Source: Roseateles sp. DAIF2 | GTDB lineage: Bacteria > Pseudomonadota > Gammaproteobacteria > Burkholderiales > Burkholderiaceae_C | DNA length: 64,000 nucleotides | Direction of reading: 5' to 3' | NCBI RefSeq assembly: GCF_015624425.1 | Contig: NZ_CP049919.1 | Location: 434,001 to 498,000, forward strand | Part shown: positions 2,451 to 44,742 of the stretch, piece by piece | Layout of the letters: each line of letters starts with the position of its first letter | Position numbering within the stretch: position 1 is the stretch's first letter | Notes under the pieces: generated by a model | Databases searched by the model: none | What the model was told of the DNA's origin: nothing | Seen by the model: the letters and a program-made list of their open reading frames with translations, nothing else | Position numbers and translations under genes: made by a program

Positions 2451-4351
2451 CCCGTGCATCGCGGATGCTTTCCCGCGTCCGATGCCGTCACGGCGTGCAA
2501 TTCCCTTGCCGCCGCTGCCCCCGTCTGCGCAGACCGGCCCAAGAGGGTCCAGGTTCTACTCAGAAGGTTTGGGTATGAACTTCTCCTCTTTCTCCGCCGG
2601 TTCCTCCGCGCACCGGATCCTGCTGCAACGCGGCTCGCATCTCATGATCGCCATCGCCACGGGTCTGGCGAGCTGGGGCGTTTCGGCACAGACGGCCGAG
2701 CCAGAATTCGCCAAGGGGCGCCTGCTGGTGCAGGCCCGCGCGGGGCTGTCGGATATTGAGATGGAGAAGGTTGCCAAGGGCCATGGCGGGAAGGCACGAC
2801 GAATCGGCAAGAGCGACCTGCACGTGATCGAGCTGCCGGGGAACGCGTCGGAGCGAGCGGTGCAGGCGCTGCTGGCCAAGCACCCGCAGCTGCGCTTCGT
2901 GGAGCTGGACCGGCGCGTGGCCCCGGCGATGGCGGTCAACGACCCTATGCCGGCAGCCAATGGCACCTGAGCAAGATCGGCGCGCAGACCGCCTGGGACA
3001 AGAGCCAGGGCGCGGGCGTGACGATCGCGATCCTGGACACCGGCATCAACGCCAGCCACCCCGACCTGGCCGCGCGCATGGTGCCGGGCTGGAACTTCTA
3101 CGACAACAATGCCAACACCACCGATGTGCATGGCCATGGCACGGCCGTGGCCGGCGGCGCCGCGGCGACCTTGAACAACGGCGTGGGCGTGGCCGCGGTG
3201 GCCGGCGCGGCGCGGCTGATGCCGGTGCGCATCGCCGACGCGAACGCGTATGCCTACTGGAGCACGGTGGCGCAGGGCGTGACCTGGGCGGCCGACAACG
3301 GCGCGCGCATCGCCAACATCAGCTATGTCGGCGTGGCCGGCAGCGCGGCGGTGCAGAGCGCGGCCAATTACATGAAGAGCAAGGGCGGCCTGGTGATCGC
3401 GGCAGCGGGCAACAACGGCATCGAGGAAACCATCGCGCCGACCAGCTCGATGATGATCGTGGTGTCGGCCACCGACAGCGCCGATGCGCTGGCCAGCTTC
3501 TCCAGCTGGGGCAGCTTCGTCACCGTGTCGGCCCCGGGCAAGGACATCTGGACCACGACGCGCGACGGCGGCTACCAGGCCTGGTGGGGCACCTCGATGG
3601 CCAGCCCGGTCGTCTCCGGCGTGCTCGGCCTGATGATGGCGGCCAAACCCGCGCTGAGCGGCAGCCAGATCGAGAGCCTGCTCTACAGCACAGCCCAGGA
3701 CCTGGGCGATGTGGGCCGCGACAAGAAGTTCGGCTATGGCCGCGTCAACGCCGCCGCGGCGGTGACGGCCGTGCTGACCGCCGCCGCGCCCGACACCCAG
3801 GCGCCCAGCGTCGGCATCGCCGCGCCGCTGGGGCTGAGCAACGTCAACGGCCTGGTGGCGGTGGACGTGACGGCCAGCGACAACGTCGGCGTCAGCCGGG
3901 TCGAGCTGCGGGCCAACGGCCAGCTCGTCGCGACCGACACCACGGCGCCCTATGCCTTCAGCTGGGACTCCAGCAAGGTGGCCAACGGCAACGCCAACCT
4001 GGTGGCCTATGCCTATGACGCGGCCGGCAATGCGGGCAGCTCGGCGGCGGTGACGGTCAATGTGGCCAACATCGTGGTGGCCGACACGACCGCGCCGGTG
4101 GTGAGCATCCTGAACCCGGTCAATGGCAGCACGGTGTCGGGCACCTTGAGCATCAGCGTCTCGGCCAGCGACAACGCCGGGGCGGCGGGCCTGGTGCAGA
4201 CCCTGGCGATCGACGGCAAGACCGTGGCGACGGGCAGCGGAGCGAGCCTGGCCTACAACTGGAACACGCGCAAGGCGGCGTTGGGGACGCACACCGTTAC
4301 CGCCACCGCCAGGGATGCTGCCGGTAACAGCCGCAGCGTGTCGGTGCAGGT
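2357..4351 (+). repeat. Tandem duplication, right copy
   Basis: Right member of the approximately 2 kb tandem repeat (left member 1-1993). It starts at least at the riboswitch and ends in the third-last codon of the protease gene; sequence downstream of the two copies is unrelated, and only this copy is followed by an intrinsic terminator (4391-4415). Confidence 0.95.
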
Positions 4352-4364
4352 GACACGCCGCTGA
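2575..4364 (+). pseudogene. Subtilisin-like protease, second copy, frameshifted
   Basis: Near-identical duplicate of the protease at 219-2006, with the same AGAAGG ribosome site and signal peptide. A missing C in the run at 2943-2945 (three C here, four in copy 1) shifts the frame after residue VND, and translation stops at 2970, before the catalytic Asp. The rest of the protein, including Asp, His and Ser motifs and both Ig-like domains, is intact in the other frame from about 3018 to 4364. An extra Met codon is inserted (SSMM instead of SSM), and the C-terminus reads VTRR. Because only one homopolymer base is involved, the break may be real decay, or an assembly error in which case a second functional protease is made. 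The internal GTG at 3018 would give a protein without secretion signal. Confidence 0.85.
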
Positions 4365-5406: not shown

Positions 5407-6201
5407 CTAGCCACCGCTGCGCCGCAACTGGTATTCACGCAGGCTCTGCTGCAGGGCCTGGCGGCGGGCGCCCTCGGGCATTTCCGCGGCCAGGGCCTGG
5501 TAGCGGGCCCAGTTCGCCTCGTTGACGAAGGGGGTCAGCTGCTCCGCCACGGTCTGTGCGGCGAACAGGCCACCGGTGCGCAGGGTGGCGCCGAGCATGC
5601 TGTCCAGACCGGCATCCAACCCCAGCTTCTGCCACTGCTCGAGGATGGGCAGGGCGATCCTGAACAGCGGCGCGTCATGGTTGTCGGCCAGCGCCGCGAT
5701 GGTGGCGGCGACGGTTGCGGCGTCGGGCGGCAGACCGGCGGCCAGGCGCAGCGCGGCCTCCTGCACATGGCCGTCGGGAAAGGCCAGGAACTCGCGCGCC
5801 AGCGCGCCCAGCTCGGCCGTGTTGCCGCCGCCCTCGCGTGGCAGGGCGCGCAGCTGCGCGGCGATCGCGTGGGCGGCGGCGAAATGGGCGCTGCGGCTGT
5901 CGGTCTCGGGAAAGCCGCAGCTGTCGGCGTAGTAGCAGCGTTTCAACGCGCGCAGCGCGGCCTGGGGCTGCTGTTGCAGCGCCGCGGCGGCCTGGCTGCC
6001 GGCGGGCGGTGCGGCAACCGATAACGGTGCCGCACCGGTGTGCTGGCTCGGCGGCCCGGATGACATTGGCCCGCCGGCATGGCCGGCCGTGCCGCTCGTC
6101 AGAGCCTGCCGCCCGCGCTCGGGCTCGGCCAGCCAGGCGCCGATGGCCACCGCGGCGGCGACCAGGCCCAGCGCGATCGGCAGTCGCGGCTGTTTCTTCA
6201 T
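5407..6201 (-). CDS. Membrane-anchored or exported protein of unknown function
   Basis: 264 residues, not recognised as a named family. An N-terminal basic stretch and hydrophobic segment (about 8-24) suggest a signal anchor or signal peptide; a Pro/Gly/Ser/Ala-rich linker follows to about residue 70. The rest is alanine-rich and predicted helical, with repeat-like pairs of helices resembling HEAT/TPR solenoids, and contains a small Cys pair (RCYYADSCGFPETD). The gene begins 12 nt after the stop of the lytic-transglycosylase-like gene at 6214-8283, so the two are probably one operon, and a role alongside that cell-wall enzyme is inferred only from this. Confidence 0.75.
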   Translation of the reverse strand: MKKQPRLPIALGLVAAAVAIGAWLAEPERGRQALTSGTAGHAGGPMSSGPPSQHTGAAPLSVAAPPAGSQAAAALQQQPQAALRALKRCYYADSCGFPETDSRSAHFAAAHAIAAQLRALPREGGGNTAELGALAREFLAFPDGHVQEAALRLAAGLPPDAATVAATIAALADNHDAPLFRIALPILEQWQKLGLDAGLDSMLGATLRTGGLFAAQTVAEQLTPFVNEANWARYQALAAEMPEGARRQALQQSLREYQLRRSGG

Positions 6202-6213
6202 CGCGGCTTGCCC

Positions 6214-8283
6214 TTACTGCCCGGCCTGCAGCGGCTGCAGGCCGACGAAGAGCGGGGCCGGCCAGCGGTTGGTGTAGCAGACGGCGTTGCCTCCGCCGCC
6301 GGTCTGCGCCAGGCAGGCATTCGCCAAGATGCTGCCGAAGGGACCGAACACGTCCTGCTCGGTCTGCCCGTTGCGCTGTACCGTCTCGACGCAGTGGAAG
6401 CGATGCTTCATCGAGCGCTCGGCGCCACGCGGGCAGTCGCCGTTGCCGCGGTAGGCGGCCGCTGCGGGGCGCTGCCAGAGCTGGGTCTGCAGCGCTCGGC
6501 CCTCGATCACCACGCCGCGCTGGGCCGTGCAGCCCGCTCCGCCGCCGGCCGCCAGGCATTGCTGGGTGGCGGTCTCGCCGAAGGGGCCGTAGGCGGTGGA
6601 GGCGCTGACGCAATGGCGCAGATGCGCGTCGAACTGCGTGCCCGCCGGGCAGAGCGCGGCCTTGGCGCTCACGCCGTCGGGCGGCGTGCTGGGCCGGGTC
6701 CAGCTGGCCAGGGTGTTGGCCGGGTAGACGTTGCCGGCGTTGATCCAGCCGTCCTGGCCGTTGAAGTTCACCCGGTAGTAGAGGTTGTTCAGCGAGGTGG
6801 TGGCGAAGATCTCCTTGACCTGCAGCCGGGTGCCGCGCGGCAGCGAGCCGCGCAGCAGGCCCGCGGGCGTGTCGCGCAGGTTCAGGTTGCTGGTGGTGGC
6901 CACCTCGACCCAGTCGCCGGGGTAGGGCAGCAGGGCGGTGGCGCCGGCCGCGGGCGGCGCCCAGGCGGCGATGCCGGCATGGGTGTCGCGGTTGCCGGCG
7001 TGGATCCAGCCGTCCAGCTCGCCATGCCTGACGCGGTAGTAGCGCTCCTGGGCGACCGGGTCGCGCAGCTCGAAGTCCAGCAGCTGGTAGGCGCCGGCGG
7101 GCAGGGTGGCGATCACGGCGCCGTCCACCGTACCGCGCAGCGGCAGCGCGGCCTTGGTCGCGAAGCTCGCGCCGACCGACAGCAGGCCCGGCACCTGGGC
7201 GCGGCAGAGCTGGTTGCGGTTGTAGTCGATGCGCTTCCTGCCGTTGATCTCATAGCCATAGACGGTCAGGGCCTGGCCGGCGTCGAAGGGCGCGATCGCG
7301 GCCAGGCAGGCGGCGTCGCGCATCGCGTCCACGCAATGCACGGTGCCCGCCGCGAGCACGCAGGCGCCGGCGCCCACCTTCAGCAGCTTGCCGTTCCAGT
7401 CACCGCCGGAGCTGGGCAGCGGGCATTGGCTGCCCATGTCCATCAGGCAGGCGATGTCGATCGCCACCGGCTTGAGCTTGTCGGCGACATCGGCCTCCCA
7501 GTACTTCTTGGTGTAGACGTCGAGGTAGCTGTTGTCCTTGGCGGCATTGGCATCCGCCGGGTTCTGCCAGCGGCAGATGCGCGTCGGGCCGCCGTTGTAG
7601 GCCGACCAGGCGGAGCGTGCGCGGTCGCGCCAGTAGCTGGCATCGACGGTCCGGCCGGCCAGGCAGCTGGCGGGCGCCTTCTTCCACGCGTCGTAGTAGA
7701 TCTCGATCGAGTAGGCGAAGTTCTGCATCATGTTCCAGCCCTTGCCCTCGGAGACCGGCACGAAGTGGTAGCGGTCGTCGAGCTGCATCATGCCGTGACC
7801 ATGGCCGGAGTCGCCGCGCATCATCTTCAGCTGGTAGGGCAGGCCGGCGGCGAGCTGGGCGTCGCGGTAATGCGACCAGAAGCTCTCCTGGCGCAACAGC
7901 GCGAACAGGCCCCATTGGAAGGCGGCCTTCTCCTCGGCATCCGCGGCCGGGTTGCGCAGCGTGAGGTAGCGCGCGGCGGACTCGCGCGCCATCGCGTACA
8001 TCTCCTGCATGTAGCGCTTCTGCTCGGTGGCGCGGGTCTGGGCGTCGTCGAAGATCAGCGGGCCATAGTTGCCGCGCACGAAGGCGTCCGGGCCGAAGGT
8101 GGCTGCATCGCAGCCGCTGGGTGCGCGGCCATGGCTCCAGCTGCCGCCGACCTTGTTATCGCACAGCCAGTCATTCGGCGTGGGGTTCTGGGCCCGGGCG
8201 CCGCCCAGGGCCAGCAGCAGGCCGGCGCCGAGCGCCAGCAGGGCGCGCAGACCGCGGGCCGCGCTGTTGTTGTGTGATGTCAT
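6214..8283 (-). CDS. Lysozyme-fold (lytic transglycosylase-like) protein with SH3-type domains
   Basis: 689-residue exported protein, probably a periplasmic peptidoglycan-cleaving enzyme. A signal peptide ends near GGARAQ (residue 32). The catalytic-like region (about 115-245) has Glu133 in LLRQESFW, a GHGMMQLDD segment (161-170) like the G-x-M-Q of SLT enzymes, and SAWSAYNGGP, the usual end of this fold. Two SH3-like segments follow, about 385-450 and 460-525, each with the D/N-G-W-I-x-A-G-N pattern, likely for wall binding. The C-terminal part is Cys-rich with two repeated units of the form H-C-V-x(n)-G-P-F-G. First gene of a two-gene unit with 5407-6201. Activity is inferred from motifs only. 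Confidence 0.8.
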   Translation of the reverse strand: MTSHNNSAARGLRALLALGAGLLLALGGARAQNPTPNDWLCDNKVGGSWSHGRAPSGCDAATFGPDAFVRGNYGPLIFDDAQTRATEQKRYMQEMYAMARESAARYLTLRNPAADAEEKAAFQWGLFALLRQESFWSHYRDAQLAAGLPYQLKMMRGDSGHGHGMMQLDDRYHFVPVSEGKGWNMMQNFAYSIEIYYDAWKKAPASCLAGRTVDASYWRDRARSAWSAYNGGPTRICRWQNPADANAAKDNSYLDVYTKKYWEADVADKLKPVAIDIACLMDMGSQCPLPSSGGDWNGKLLKVGAGACVLAAGTVHCVDAMRDAACLAAIAPFDAGQALTVYGYEINGRKRIDYNRNQLCRAQVPGLLSVGASFATKAALPLRGTVDGAVIATLPAGAYQLLDFELRDPVAQERYYRVRHGELDGWIHAGNRDTHAGIAAWAPPAAGATALLPYPGDWVEVATTSNLNLRDTPAGLLRGSLPRGTRLQVKEIFATTSLNNLYYRVNFNGQDGWINAGNVYPANTLASWTRPSTPPDGVSAKAALCPAGTQFDAHLRHCVSASTAYGPFGETATQQCLAAGGGAGCTAQRGVVIEGRALQTQLWQRPAAAAYRGNGDCPRGAERSMKHRFHCVETVQRNGQTEQDVFGPFGSILANACLAQTGGGGNAVCYTNRWPAPLFVGLQPLQAGQ

Positions 8284-41125: not shown

Positions 41126-42073
41126 TCAGGGGCCCTGAACGCTGGAGAGGGTACGGGCCGCCCATTGGTACAAGGGGTCGCGGATCACGGTGGCGATCGC
41201 CGAGCGCGCCGTGATGCCCGCGATGCCCCTGGCCTCCATCGCGTGGATCATCCCGTCCATGTCCGCGTTCCGGATGCGGTTCTCCGCGATCCATTGAATC
41301 CAGTCGTCGGTCAATCTCGGGTGCCCACGCGAATGCACCAGTTCGGCCGGGACGTCGAACAGGTCTTCCAGCAACACGGTATCGAGTTCGCCGCGGGCCC
41401 GCAGATGCTCGCTCACCGCATGCGACGCCGCGGGATGCAGCCGGATCGAAGTGCCCGCGAGGGCCTGGAACCGGCGCGCATGCAGTAGATCGAGATTCTC
41501 ATGACCATGCTCGGGCGCATCGGGCGCGCAGCCATAGTGCAGCCGCAGTTCCGGGGTTTCCGTAGCCCGATCCGCCAGCAGGTCGACCAGGTCGGTCGAG
41601 GCGCCGGGGATGCCTGCGTCCTGCAGCGACTGCATGACGGGCAGCCAGCGGCGGTCCCCATGGCGCAGCGCCGCGGCCAGTTCCATCGTCGACAAGGCGC
41701 CGAAGGCGACAACCCGCGCAGCCGCTAGCGCCCGGCCATACAGGATGGCGCCATAGCCGCCCATCGACTGACCGAGCGTGATGATTCTTGCGGGGCGAAG
41801 CTCATCGATCAGCGCCCGCAGGCTGCTGATCGTGCTCGGCAGATCCGGGCCGAGCCCATGGACCCCTTGCAGGTACCAGGCGAGCCGCGTGTCGCGCAGG
41901 TGGATCTTCTGGAAGCTCTCGCCCAGGATCCATTCGATCTTCTTGAGCCGGCCCTGGAAGTCGCAGGCGGGCGGGCGTTCCCATTGCGCGAAGCCGAAGC
42001 TGATGACCAGCGGGCGGCCCGGGGCGCGATCCTCGATCAGGACATCCGGCTCAGGGCATGGCCGGATCGACAT
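41126..42073 (-). CDS. Alpha/beta hydrolase with a C-terminal W-x2-W helical domain
   Basis: 315 residues. The catalytic part (about 10-245) has the nucleophile elbow GQSMGG with Ser103 and a His in SHAVSEH (218) as probable base; no signal peptide. Residues 255-305 carry a small helical domain, D-W-I-Q-W-I-A-E-N then D-M-D-G-M-I-H-A-M-E-A-R-G, homologous to the N-terminal domains of the two oxygenases at 42051-43070 and 43900-44742. The gene begins inside the 3' end of the JmjC-type gene (23-nt overlap), so they are surely co-expressed. Substrate unknown. Confidence 0.82.
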   Translation of the reverse strand: MSIRPCPEPDVLIEDRAPGRPLVISFGFAQWERPPACDFQGRLKKIEWILGESFQKIHLRDTRLAWYLQGVHGLGPDLPSTISSLRALIDELRPARIITLGQSMGGYGAILYGRALAAARVVAFGALSTMELAAALRHGDRRWLPVMQSLQDAGIPGASTDLVDLLADRATETPELRLHYGCAPDAPEHGHENLDLLHARRFQALAGTSIRLHPAASHAVSEHLRARGELDTVLLEDLFDVPAELVHSRGHPRLTDDWIQWIAENRIRNADMDGMIHAMEARGIAGITARSAIATVIRDPLYQWAARTLSSVQGP

Positions 42074-43070
42074 ATTCGAAGCGGTTCGGAATCGTCAGCC
42101 CCGTGTAGCTGATCGAGACGCTGGGCTCCAGCGCGCAGACCTGGTGCCACCAACCCAGCGGCAGGAACAGGGTCTCGCCGGGGTGGATCACCGCCTCCAG
42201 CACGCGGGTCGCGGCGATGTCGGGATAGCGCTGATGGTCTGGGGCATCCAGGTCGACTGGGCTGAACACATGGTTGTGGTTGTACATGCGCTCCCATTCC
42301 AGCGGCGAGACCAGGCGCCAGCGCTTGCTACCGACGATCTGGGTGTGGAACAGCATGCAGGTGTCGTGATGCAGCGGCGTCTTGGTGCCGGCGGGGCCGA
42401 TCCACAGATGGGCTGCCGAGGCCAGGGCGGCTCGGTCCGCCAGCGGCGGCAGCTCGCCGACATCGTCCAGCAGGCCGGCGAAACGGGCCTGGCGCAGCAG
42501 GCCGTTGTTGGCGGTGAGGTAGGCGTTGTTGTCCCAGGCCGTCCGCTCGGCATAGGCCAGGAACTCGCCGAAGCGCATCGGACGTTTGTGCGCGACGCTG
42601 TTTTCCTCGAAGCGTGGATCGTCGTTGCGCCCGTCCTGCACCTCGATCAGCTCCTCGCCGAAACGAGCGGCGAGCCGGTCCAGGCGCCAGTTCCGCAGCG
42701 CCGGCCAGGCGCGGGCATGGCCGGTCAGCACCGCGGGGCGGAAGGCATGCACATAGCGAGCGAGAAAGTCGGCGGCATCGATCGCCTGGTGCCGGGGGAT
42801 CTCCGCGTACCGCGGGTCCGCGGCCCACACCGACTGCATATTGCCGACGACCGACAGCAGCTTCTGATGCCTGCGCCGGGCTCGCAAGGCCGCCGTGAAA
42901 ATCGGATCATCGGCGACCCGCTGGATGGCGGCCAGGGCCGGATCGGCGCCCAAGCCGGCACGCACCATGCCCTGCAGCATGGAGTCGGTGCTGCAGCCTC
43001 GCAGCAGATTGGTAGCGATCCATTCGGTCCAGCCCCGGTCATCGATACCGGGGCCTGTGGCGGCTTGCAT
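42051..43070 (-). CDS. JmjC/cupin-8-type Fe(II)/2-oxoglutarate oxygenase with N-terminal W-x2-W domain
   Basis: 339 residues, cytoplasmic, probably a protein or peptide hydroxylase. Residues 14-60 are the small helical domain shared with its neighbours (W-T-E-W-I-A-T-N-L-L-R-G-C-S-T-D-S-M). The cupin barrel (about 100-325) has the iron ligands H234-x-D236 (LHHDT) and distal His309 (GWWHQ), with the nearby Lys249 as candidate 2-oxoglutarate contact. Downstream of a WYL regulator on the same strand (79-nt gap) and overlapping the alpha/beta hydrolase gene. No precursor-peptide gene is visible nearby. Confidence 0.88.
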   Translation of the reverse strand: MQAATGPGIDDRGWTEWIATNLLRGCSTDSMLQGMVRAGLGADPALAAIQRVADDPIFTAALRARRRHQKLLSVVGNMQSVWAADPRYAEIPRHQAIDAADFLARYVHAFRPAVLTGHARAWPALRNWRLDRLAARFGEELIEVQDGRNDDPRFEENSVAHKRPMRFGEFLAYAERTAWDNNAYLTANNGLLRQARFAGLLDDVGELPPLADRAALASAAHLWIGPAGTKTPLHHDTCMLFHTQIVGSKRWRLVSPLEWERMYNHNHVFSPVDLDAPDHQRYPDIAATRVLEAVIHPGETLFLPLGWWHQVCALEPSVSISYTGLTIPNRFEYVDPAMP

Positions 43071-43149
43071 GCAGAAGATACTCGGACGTTTTTATCCGCC
43101 AACTATCCACGCGCTCCGTGACAGCATGACGAAGCCGGTAGGCCGTCGC

Positions 43150-43830
43150 TCAGCTCGCCATATGGGTGCGCTCCAGATCGGCCAGGGTCTTGCCCGGCTC
43201 GTCGCGGAAGCGTTCGTCCAGCGGGGTCAGGTCTTGAATCCGGTCGACGCGGAAGCTGCGGAAGTCCTCGCGCATCTCGCACCAGGCCGCCACGGTCCAG
43301 ACCGGCCCCCAGAAGAAGCAGGCCAGCGGCCGCACCACCCGCTCGGTGCTGATGCCGCTCAGGTCCAGGTAGTTCAGGCGCAGCTTGCGGCGCAGCTCGG
43401 TGGCCTCGCGCAGCTGCACCAGGCGCTGGCTCAGGGTCTCGTCCATGCCGGCGCGCGGCGCGTAGACGGCCAGGCTCTCGGCCGCCGCGCGTGCCGCCGG
43501 CGACAGCACCGCCAGGATCTTGGACAGCGCGGCCTCCGCCGGCGCCGCCAGGCCGGCGTCCAGCGCGGGCCGTGCCAGCCGCACCACCGCGACCAGGGCC
43601 TGGGCCTCTTCCTTGGTGAACATCAGCGGCGGCAGGTCGAAGCCGGCCTTCATGCGGTAGCCGACACCGGCCTCGCCCTCGATCGGCACGCCCTGCTGCT
43701 GCAGGGCGGCCACGTCGCGGTAGACGGTGCGGACCGAGACCTCCAGGCGTTCGGCCAGGAACTCGGCGGTGGAAAGACGGCGCCCACGAATGAGCTGGAC
43801 GATCTGGAACAGGCGGTCGGCACGGCGCAT
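43150..43830 (-). CDS. YafY-type HTH/WYL transcriptional regulator
   Basis: 226 residues. N-terminal HTH_11 (MRRADRLFQIVQLIRGRRLS ... V-S-V-R-T-V-Y-R-D), a helical linker and a C-terminal WYL-type sensor region with V-W-T-V-A-A-W-C-E-M-R-E-D-F-R-S-F-R-V-D-R. It is encoded between the two oxygenase genes and divergently from 43900-44742 with only 69 nt between starts, so it probably controls both directions. Ligand unknown; WYL domains bind nucleic acids or small metabolites. Confidence 0.92.
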   Translation of the reverse strand: MRRADRLFQIVQLIRGRRLSTAEFLAERLEVSVRTVYRDVAALQQQGVPIEGEAGVGYRMKAGFDLPPLMFTKEEAQALVAVVRLARPALDAGLAAPAEAALSKILAVLSPAARAAAESLAVYAPRAGMDETLSQRLVQLREATELRRKLRLNYLDLSGISTERVVRPLACFFWGPVWTVAAWCEMREDFRSFRVDRIQDLTPLDERFRDEPGKTLADLERTHMAS

Positions 43831-43899
43831 CCCTCCATTGTGGCTGCTTCCGATGCTCGCTTCACACTGCTGACGCCGTGCTGTCAGTACGATCGTCCG

Positions 43900-44742
43900 A
43901 TGTCGCTGCAACAACTCTCTCCCGATTGGCAGGCCTGGGTCCGTGAAAACGTCGGGCGTGGCTGCAGTCGCGACTCGATGCTGCCCCTGCTGGTGCAGGG
44001 CGGGCATGCCCAGGTCCTGGCCGAACGGGCGCTGGACGAGGCGCTGAATGGCGGCGCGCTCGACGCCGCTCAGGGTCAGGCCTTGCGCGGTCGGCCGGCG
44101 CCCGATCTGCGTGCGAACCGGCTGGTCTGCGAGGGGCAGGGCGTGCGGGTGGCGGCGGTGCTGGACGCGCCGCAGGTCGTCCTGTTCGAGAACCTGCTCT
44201 CGGCCGACGAATGCCGCCAGATGATCGCGCTGGCCGAGACCCGGCTGGCCCGCTCCACCGTGGTCGACGATCAGCTGGGCGAGGCCCGTCCGCATGAGCA
44301 CCGCACCAGCGCAGGGGCCTGGTTCCATCGCGGCGAGACGCCGCTGTTGGCGCGCATCGAGGCGCGGCTGGCGGCGCTGCTGCGTTGGCCGGTCGACCAT
44401 GGCGAGGGCCTGCAGGTGCTGCGCTATGGCCCCGGCGGCGAGTACCGCGCCCATCATGACTTTTTTCACCCCACCCTGAGCGGCAGCCAGCGCCATCTGC
44501 AGCAAGGCGGCCAGCGGGTCGGCACCTGCATCCTCTACCTCAGCGAGGTCGAGGCCGGAGGCGGCACCCGCTTCCCGCAGCTGGGCTACGAGCTGCGGCC
44601 GATACCCGGCTCCGCGCTCTACTTCGCCGATGTCGACGCCCAGGGTGTGGAGGATCACGCCACCCTGCACGCGGGCCTGCCGGTGATCGAGGGCGTCAAG
44701 TACATCGCCACCAAGTGGCTGCGCGAGCGGCCCTACGTCTGA
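43900..44742 (+). CDS. Prolyl-4-hydroxylase-like Fe(II)/2OG oxygenase with N-terminal W-x2-W domain
   Basis: 280 residues, cytoplasmic. Residues 10-50 are the shared helical domain (D-W-Q-A-W-V-R-E-N then R-G-C-S-R-D-S-M). The catalytic P4H-type domain (about 90-278) has Fe ligands H185-x-D187 (AHHDFF), distal His257 (LHAGLPV) and the 2OG-binding Lys267 (GVKYIATKW). It hydroxylates proline or a similar residue in proteins or peptides by family analogy. Divergent from the WYL regulator. Its target is not known; the domain in common with the JmjC-type protein and the hydrolase suggests a common partner. Confidence 0.9.
   Translation: MSLQQLSPDWQAWVRENVGRGCSRDSMLPLLVQGGHAQVLAERALDEALNGGALDAAQGQALRGRPAPDLRANRLVCEGQGVRVAAVLDAPQVVLFENLLSADECRQMIALAETRLARSTVVDDQLGEARPHEHRTSAGAWFHRGETPLLARIEARLAALLRWPVDHGEGLQVLRYGPGGEYRAHHDFFHPTLSGSQRHLQQGGQRVGTCILYLSEVEAGGGTRFPQLGYELRPIPGSALYFADVDAQGVEDHATLHAGLPVIEGVKYIATKWLRERPYV

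Follow-up and report, generated by a model that had tools for sequence, protein, structure and literature searches.

A small W-x2-W helical domain is shared by two unrelated oxygenases and a hydrolase-like protein of Roseateles and may recruit them to proline-rich tracts of exported proteins

Introduction

What do three neighbouring enzymes of different folds have in common, and on what might they act? Within 64,000 nucleotides of the Roseateles sp. DAIF2 genome (NZ_CP049919.1, positions 434,001 to 498,000; hereafter the window, in whose numbering positions are given), an alpha/beta-hydrolase-like protein, a JmjC/Cupin_8 2-oxoglutarate (2OG) oxygenase and a prolyl-4-hydroxylase (P4H)-type 2OG oxygenase are encoded close together. 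An initial annotation proposed that all three carry one small helical domain with a W-x2-W motif, which would dock them on one partner or on each other. Bacteria have many oxygenases of the P4H and JmjC types, and to our knowledge most of these have no established protein substrate. Here we find that the domain is indeed shared, and that in several other bacterial groups its oxygenases can adjoin exported proteins with (Pro-Thr)n, or (PT)n, tracts; this may point to a bacterial modification system for such repeats that has been overlooked. If that is right, exported bacterial proteins would undergo a further kind of post-translational modification, and the domain would be a portable module for targeting. 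In what follows G denotes a genome, L a fetched locus, P a protein and f a family of genomes; C1 is a contig of the window's own genome, G000.

One domain in three enzymes

Two domain profiles were made, using the N-terminal regions of 112 JmjC and 117 P4H relatives out of 120 listed of each kind (177 and 1537 matches overall). The two profiles align with each other in hhalign over 49 columns (probability 99.0, P 5.6e-18), and each recognises the window proteins of the other kinds: the JmjC-family profile gives 38.5 bits to the P4H and 55.1 bits to the hydrolase, and the P4H-family profile gives 39.8 bits to the JmjC protein and 23.1 bits to the hydrolase. The maximum among 2000 shuffles of each segment was 12.1 bits in either profile. 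In the own genome a three-row profile finds the three window genes at E 2.2e-26 or better, with the next-best place at E 0.107, and a 38-row profile finds one further P4H, at C1:3715156 (L081; E 1.1e-7). The cross-family scores of 23-55 bits compare with no more than 10.2 bits for shuffles scored in the other family's profile; the match is not chance-level low-complexity similarity. On this profile evidence, the C-terminus of the hydrolase and the N-termini of the JmjC protein and the P4H are one common domain. Among 244 collected proteins, 16 gave no domain match, including fragments, one wrong-strand translation and DUF6065-Cupin_8 proteins. The catalytic folds of the two oxygenases differ (PF13621 Cupin_8 at 136.5 bits; PF13640 at 54.9 bits), which bears out the initial annotation in describing domain sharing and not whole-gene duplication.

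The fold was predicted for the P4H segment and for the domain of P0094, a hydrolase-JmjC fusion described below. Both have the same predicted layout of three helices, the first of which holds W-x2-W, where differing folds would have spoken against a shared domain. The domain was also rightly called unnamed, the window copies being covered by no Pfam or NCBIfam model. Across 38 domain segments no Pfam family matched more than two (UBA_HOIP 2/38, UBA_6 1/38; best UBA E 0.0043), and Foldseek with the isolated domain returned nothing below E 1. A PDB sequence search with the domain gave RecX (3dfg) at E 2.4e-4; we rejected this relationship, the similarity probably being a common small-helix pattern. 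A literature search, for which most subscription papers were out of reach, yielded no description of the W-x2-W domain or of hydroxylated bacterial (PT)n tracts.

(Pro-Thr)n tracts beside domain-bearing oxygenases

The lead to a possible substrate came from 72 neighbourhoods chosen by domain match and P4H similarity, eight of which held exported proteins with (PT)n tracts near the oxygenases. We then took as a test set 40 new loci of up to 12 kb from domain matches in three other families, f139 (14 of 17 matched places, the remainder being in use already), f174 (16, the listed places minus three and those already used) and f175 (10 of 48 listed places, hand-picked near the top of the list while their surroundings were still unseen), and counted a locus as positive if its tract had five or more PT units. 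Tracts and oxygenases were counted on stop-to-stop frames because the gene caller used errs in GC-rich loci.

A tract was present in 13 of the 40 test loci (f139 1/14, f174 7/16, f175 5/10), against one of 40 control regions of 20 kb (800 kb in total) at arbitrary round-number positions in the same or sister genomes; trimming the controls to their first 12 kb left the count at 1/40. The Fisher p value is 6.7e-4, a guide only, since related genomes are not independent. By enzyme, tracts occur in eight of the nine JmjC loci and six of the 31 P4H loci; L202 has both enzymes, and L197 has no oxygenase above the score limit. The nearest tract lies 274-1640 bases off in the positive JmjC loci; the ninth, L195, is a contig of 8.1 kb. 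As a further control, eight of 19 other Cupin_8 matches, all domain-less and in genomes with a domain-bearing JmjC or P4H, gave 7.5-kb loci with a tract in none (0/8).

Tract-bearing neighbours and exchange of enzymes

Tract-bearing open reading frames (ORFs) number 33, in 23 loci. By a crude rule 18 of these ORFs have a lipobox-like start, and a few of the others are probably off-frame readings. The neighbours form about nine groups with no similarity detected between groups outside the tract. The largest, with 15 of the 33 ORFs, is a cluster of chitinases, of which four were checked by Pfam: these are CBM5/12 chitinases, of GH18 type beside JmjC in L219 and L220 and of GH19 type beside P4H in L213 and L216. 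Overall the chitinase cluster adjoins a P4H in L213, L214 and L216 and a JmjC in L218-L220, L222 and L224. An apparent 973-amino-acid fused P4H in L214 was rejected, as the extra part of its stop-to-stop frame overlaps the chitinase ORF.

Other neighbours are a Collagen_mid lipoprotein (L201, by Pfam), proteins of L125 and L076 that match no Pfam family, and a Moraxella osloensis autotransporter with 62 PT units, whose adjoining P4H has a weak domain match (18.3 bits). The type I secretion operons of L121 and L133 belong to one family (868 bits between their ABC proteins and 313 bits between their HlyD proteins; HlyB-type by NCBIfam); that of L121 includes a P4H and a likely exported protein with a PSPPP-rich tract, and that of L133 a JmjC and a (PT)n protein. 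FHA/TonB/ExbD loci likewise hold a JmjC in L070 and L071 (names given by eye; the FHA-like frame has no NCBIfam match) and a P4H in L164, on Methylomagnum ishizawai plasmid pRS11DPr1 (annotated), with a (PT)11 protein at a distance of about 13 kb. As annotated, the FHA-family locus of L164 also encodes CefA, two radical SAM maturases of ribosomally synthesised and post-translationally modified peptides, and PhoX. The two oxygenase folds with the common domain thus replace each other beside similar partners, and this exchange is our main ground for supposing that the domain recruits its enzymes to a shared type of target.

Proposed explanation

We tentatively propose, as an account that may hold, that the W-x2-W module is the substrate-recruiting domain of hydroxylases acting on Pro-rich, typically (PT)n, tracts of exported proteins. 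We start from the domain homology, the three-helix prediction, the fusions and the co-localisation with its controls, and from these infer the binding of tracts, the hydroxylation of Pro by the P4H and of some residue of the tract by the JmjC enzyme, the order of events before export and the transfer of the scheme to the subtypes in the window. The three-helix module, N-terminal to two unrelated oxygenases, would bring them to flexible proline-rich tracts, whose residues they would then hydroxylate in the cytoplasm ahead of export (Pro in the case of the P4H). In the window's lineage the hydrolase would have gained the domain at its C-terminus and presumably shares a target with its JmjC partner.

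Put more broadly, and with slightly more reserve, it is possible that these genes are parts of a proteobacterial hydroxyproline-rich-protein system, in which the domain recognises extended (Pro-Thr)n or Pro-rich tracts. P4H and JmjC would be interchangeable oxygenases that it recruits there to hydroxylate linkers before export. Some of these oxygenases come as fusions with a methyltransferase and an APH-type kinase, and one with a hydrolase-like domain. The substrates would be linkers of chitinases, adhesins, autotransporters and type I secretion substrates, perhaps decorated further.

Several observations weigh against this proposal. No (PT)n tract lies within 6 kb of 61 of the 71 P4H genes and 33 of the 43 JmjC genes examined; for two of these 33 (in L070 and L071) a tract occurs at 8.6-8.9 kb. 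The association in the test set rests on f174 and f175, with just the one positive locus in f139; every test family includes a genome that suggested the idea, the related genomes are dependent and f175 was hand-picked. The tract of test locus L207 may be spurious; it sits in a 238-amino-acid frame that has no signal. The chitinases have more in common than their tract. Among JmjC genes of the window's subtype, assigned as A or B by a crude motif rule, 30 of 32 lack a tract, and the two tract-bearing exceptions (L119, L224) look misassigned. The window itself has no (PT)n tract, the clearest candidate found in its genome, an S8 peptidase with (PT)13 and a Gly-rich hydrophobic C-terminus at C1:1989750, is about 1.5 Mb away, and the P4H common in the family may have a housekeeping target. 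That the window trio acts on a Pro-rich exported target is an extrapolation from the other groups, and we regard it as doubtful.

Two S8 peptidases of the own genome, at C1:1989750 (L186) and C1:5502181 (L185), end in a PT- or PA-rich linker, a Gly-rich stretch and a hydrophobic tail. These tails resemble GlyGly-CTERM; NCBIfam gave no such match.

Alternative explanations

A first alternative is that the domain is an oligomerisation module, by which P4H, JmjC and hydrolase assemble together or as homodimers, with nothing implied about the substrate. Helical bundles are common dimerisation modules, and the enzymes do keep company: three neighbouring domain genes occur in the window and in G077, and a JmjC and a P4H share one short stretch in the window, L064 (G077), L063 (G104) and L202 (G1253). 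Outside the window, however, a P4H shares the fetched stretch with only three of the 43 JmjC genes examined, and oligomerisation leaves the (PT)n neighbours unexplained; we consider it unlikely.

Of the initial annotation's single system, the functional linkage is upheld by the P0094 chain and by the JmjC-P4H proximity in four genomes (the window's, G077, G104 and G1253). Docking of the enzymes on one another is unneeded: in other groups it is an exported (PT)n protein that recurs as the partner. P0094, a metagenomic protein of 571 amino acids, consists of a hydrolase-like part, alignable along the window hydrolase, then one domain, then a JmjC; a contig scan of genomes with P0094 found only one distant JmjC. 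A methyltransferase, an APH-type kinase, the domain and a JmjC share one frame in L133 (G552:C14, by Pfam) and in L195 (G1074:C62, where the domain comes from a profile match and the methyltransferase and kinase were read by eye from the sequence). The L133 and L195 fusion frames come from two different families, and that of L133 lies inside a type I secretion operon. An acyltransferase and other P4H neighbours are common to several relatives and JmjC plus hydrolase were seen there only in the window and L064, so that the JmjC-hydrolase pair was probably inserted beside a pre-existing P4H. No conserved neighbour was seen in the loci clustered around window-type JmjC genes. In L202, a 246-amino-acid protein (5793-6533), without Pfam or NCBIfam match and glycosyltransferase-like by eye, lies between the JmjC and the P4H and adjoins a (PT)19 protein; a decoration step is a possible role for it.

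A second alternative takes the docking partner to be a housekeeping component of all these bacteria, such as a translation factor or ribosomal protein, with (PT)n proteins a side branch; it draws on how the domain is distributed. Genome-survey counts are lower bounds, as only part of the first-look candidates were scored. In the window's family 158 of 200 genomes have a domain match (E 1e-3); the matches listed are mostly in frames of about 280-400 amino acids and none is below 279; those of lower score that were examined, L081-L092, are P4H genes. Apart from L084, which belongs to another family, these 11 loci each have one P4H and no (PT)n tract, and six of them lie beside a yaaA-like gene, so named by analogy with an annotated pair. 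Bacterial 2OG oxygenases that act on a ribosomal protein are known (PMC4295552). At E 1e-9 the count is 48 of 399 genomes. Further afield, a phylum-wide draw matched 22 of 398, and the other families 17 of 118 (f139, 1e-4), 19 of 140 (f174, 1e-6) and 40 of 136 (f175, 1e-6). A housekeeping partner does not sit well with the class-wide draw, where at least 7 of 274 genomes match, or with the association of the test loci with exported (PT)n proteins, and we hold it improbable.

Most fetched stretches hold a single domain-bearing gene. The domain is widespread on the oxygenases, with the hydrolase as a marginal member: a domain-bearing hydrolase was found in two of 299 genomes, the own genome and G077 (two others have distant hydrolases), and a protein search with its domain region found itself and one Paucibacter protein, 80% identical. 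Standalone copies of the domain are possible at most: short frames with a domain match are of 89 amino acids in G1062, immediately before a distinct P4H-like frame (L200), of 80 in G951 and of 135-136 in G1322 and G1297. In L119 (G872:C17) a JmjC gene that adjoins a (PT)21 lipoprotein is frameshifted just past the domain, leaving a 99-amino-acid front frame.

A third alternative, equally improbable, is that the co-localisation is real and the modified site lies elsewhere, in chitin-binding modules or catalytic domains, (PT)n linkers being merely typical of such proteins; the chitinase share of the tract-bearing ORFs favours it, but the remaining neighbours have no detected similarity between groups other than the tract; they comprise an autotransporter, the FHA-like proteins, a protein of a type I secretion locus, a lipoprotein with Collagen_mid and further lipoproteins that match no Pfam family.

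Genes of the locus

The initial annotation had the three genes and their positions right; strands are added and the domain limits refined in Table 1, and the WYL regulator it had placed between the enzymes is confirmed by its PF13280 match. The hydrolase and JmjC genes overlap by 23 bases, and the closest named relatives in protein searches are from Paucibacter and Roseateles.

Table 1. Positions in the window of the three domain-bearing enzymes, their shared domain and the intervening regulator
Feature	Position	Strand	Evidence
Alpha/beta-hydrolase-like protein, 315 amino acids	41126..42073	-	G-Q-S-M-G-G nucleophile motif; alignment with P0244 and P0094
Shared W-x2-W helical domain, hydrolase residues 254-311	41141..41314	-	55.1 bits JmjC-family profile; 23.1 bits P4H-family profile
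JmjC/Cupin_8 2OG oxygenase, 339 amino acids	42051..43070	-	PF13621, 136.5 bits; JMJD5 relatives in PDB
Shared domain, JmjC residues 11-75	42846..43040	-	Profile matches; in related fusion P0094, three helices predicted plus a long helix after
HTH-WYL regulator between JmjC and P4H (neighbour, putative role)	43150..43830	-	PF08279; PF13280 (62 bits)
P4H-type 2OG-Fe(II) oxygenase, 280 amino acids	43900..44742	+	PF13640, 54.9 bits; P4H relatives in PDB
Shared domain, P4H residues about 5-53 (or 5-58)	43912..44058	+	Profile matches; predicted helices 8-19, 24-33, 38-59

Both oxygenases score well above the cut-offs of their Pfam families (27 for PF13640 and 27.4 for PF13621). In an alignment of 53 P4H sequences H185, D187, H257 and K267 (P0123 numbering) are invariant; we take the first three to be the iron ligands HxD...H and K267 to be the 2OG-binding Lys of P4H. 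In the JmjC alignment of 63 proteins the iron ligands HxD...H are H464, D466 and H539 (P0094 numbering), kept in at least 90%. The window hydrolase is below family cut-offs, its best Pfam match being PF12146 (12.3 bits, cut-off 27) and its NCBIfam score 12.7 of 400. Its G-x-S-x-G nucleophile motif reads GQSMGG, as in P0244; in the fusion P0094 it is GQAMGG, with Ala in place of the nucleophile Ser. Distant hydrolase relatives are located in plasmid capsule and glycosyltransferase regions.

Elsewhere in the window, a subtilase (S8) gene with Ig-like domains (219-2006) has a tandem duplicate (2575-4364), which is broken into two frames near 2970-3018.

Comparison with known systems

The likeness of UBA-like, RecX and PWI-like (Nab2 N-terminal) small helical domains to the W-x2-W domain is a weak profile or fold resemblance only; they differ in that at most two of the 38 members match any Pfam family and Foldseek gave no significant match.

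The JmjC/Cupin_8 hydroxylases JMJD5, JMJD7 and FIH are homologous to the window JmjC in their catalytic domain by sequence (6.4e-26 to JMJD5), with HxD...H kept. The fold search with the model of P0094, a relative of the window JmjC, was filled by JMJD5 and other JmjC structures, so that its predicted fold appears homologous. The window protein adds the N-terminal W-x2-W domain, and its proposed targets are exported low-complexity tracts. The DUF6065-Cupin_8 proteins (P0113 and others) have a JmjC/Cupin_8 part homologous to that of the window JmjC, but DUF6065 stands at the front and the W-x2-W domain was not detected in them.

The window P4H has a catalytic domain homologous to those of collagen-type P4Hs, its residues 69-279 matching 5hv0. 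Here 5hv0 is BaP4H, 2jig a plant-type P4H and 7zsc human C-P4H. PDB matches begin at residue 69 or later and leave the bacterial domain, of about 50 residues in three predicted helices with W-x2-W, uncovered. Human C-P4H has an N-terminal helical peptide-substrate-binding domain ahead of the catalytic domain (PMC9676403); the bacterial P4H likewise has an extra N-terminal helical domain, the likeness being one of position and proposed role only. The substrate suggested for the bacterial enzyme is (PT)n and not collagen. Plant extensins and animal collagen offer a loose analogy to the proposed bacterial hydroxyproline-rich system.

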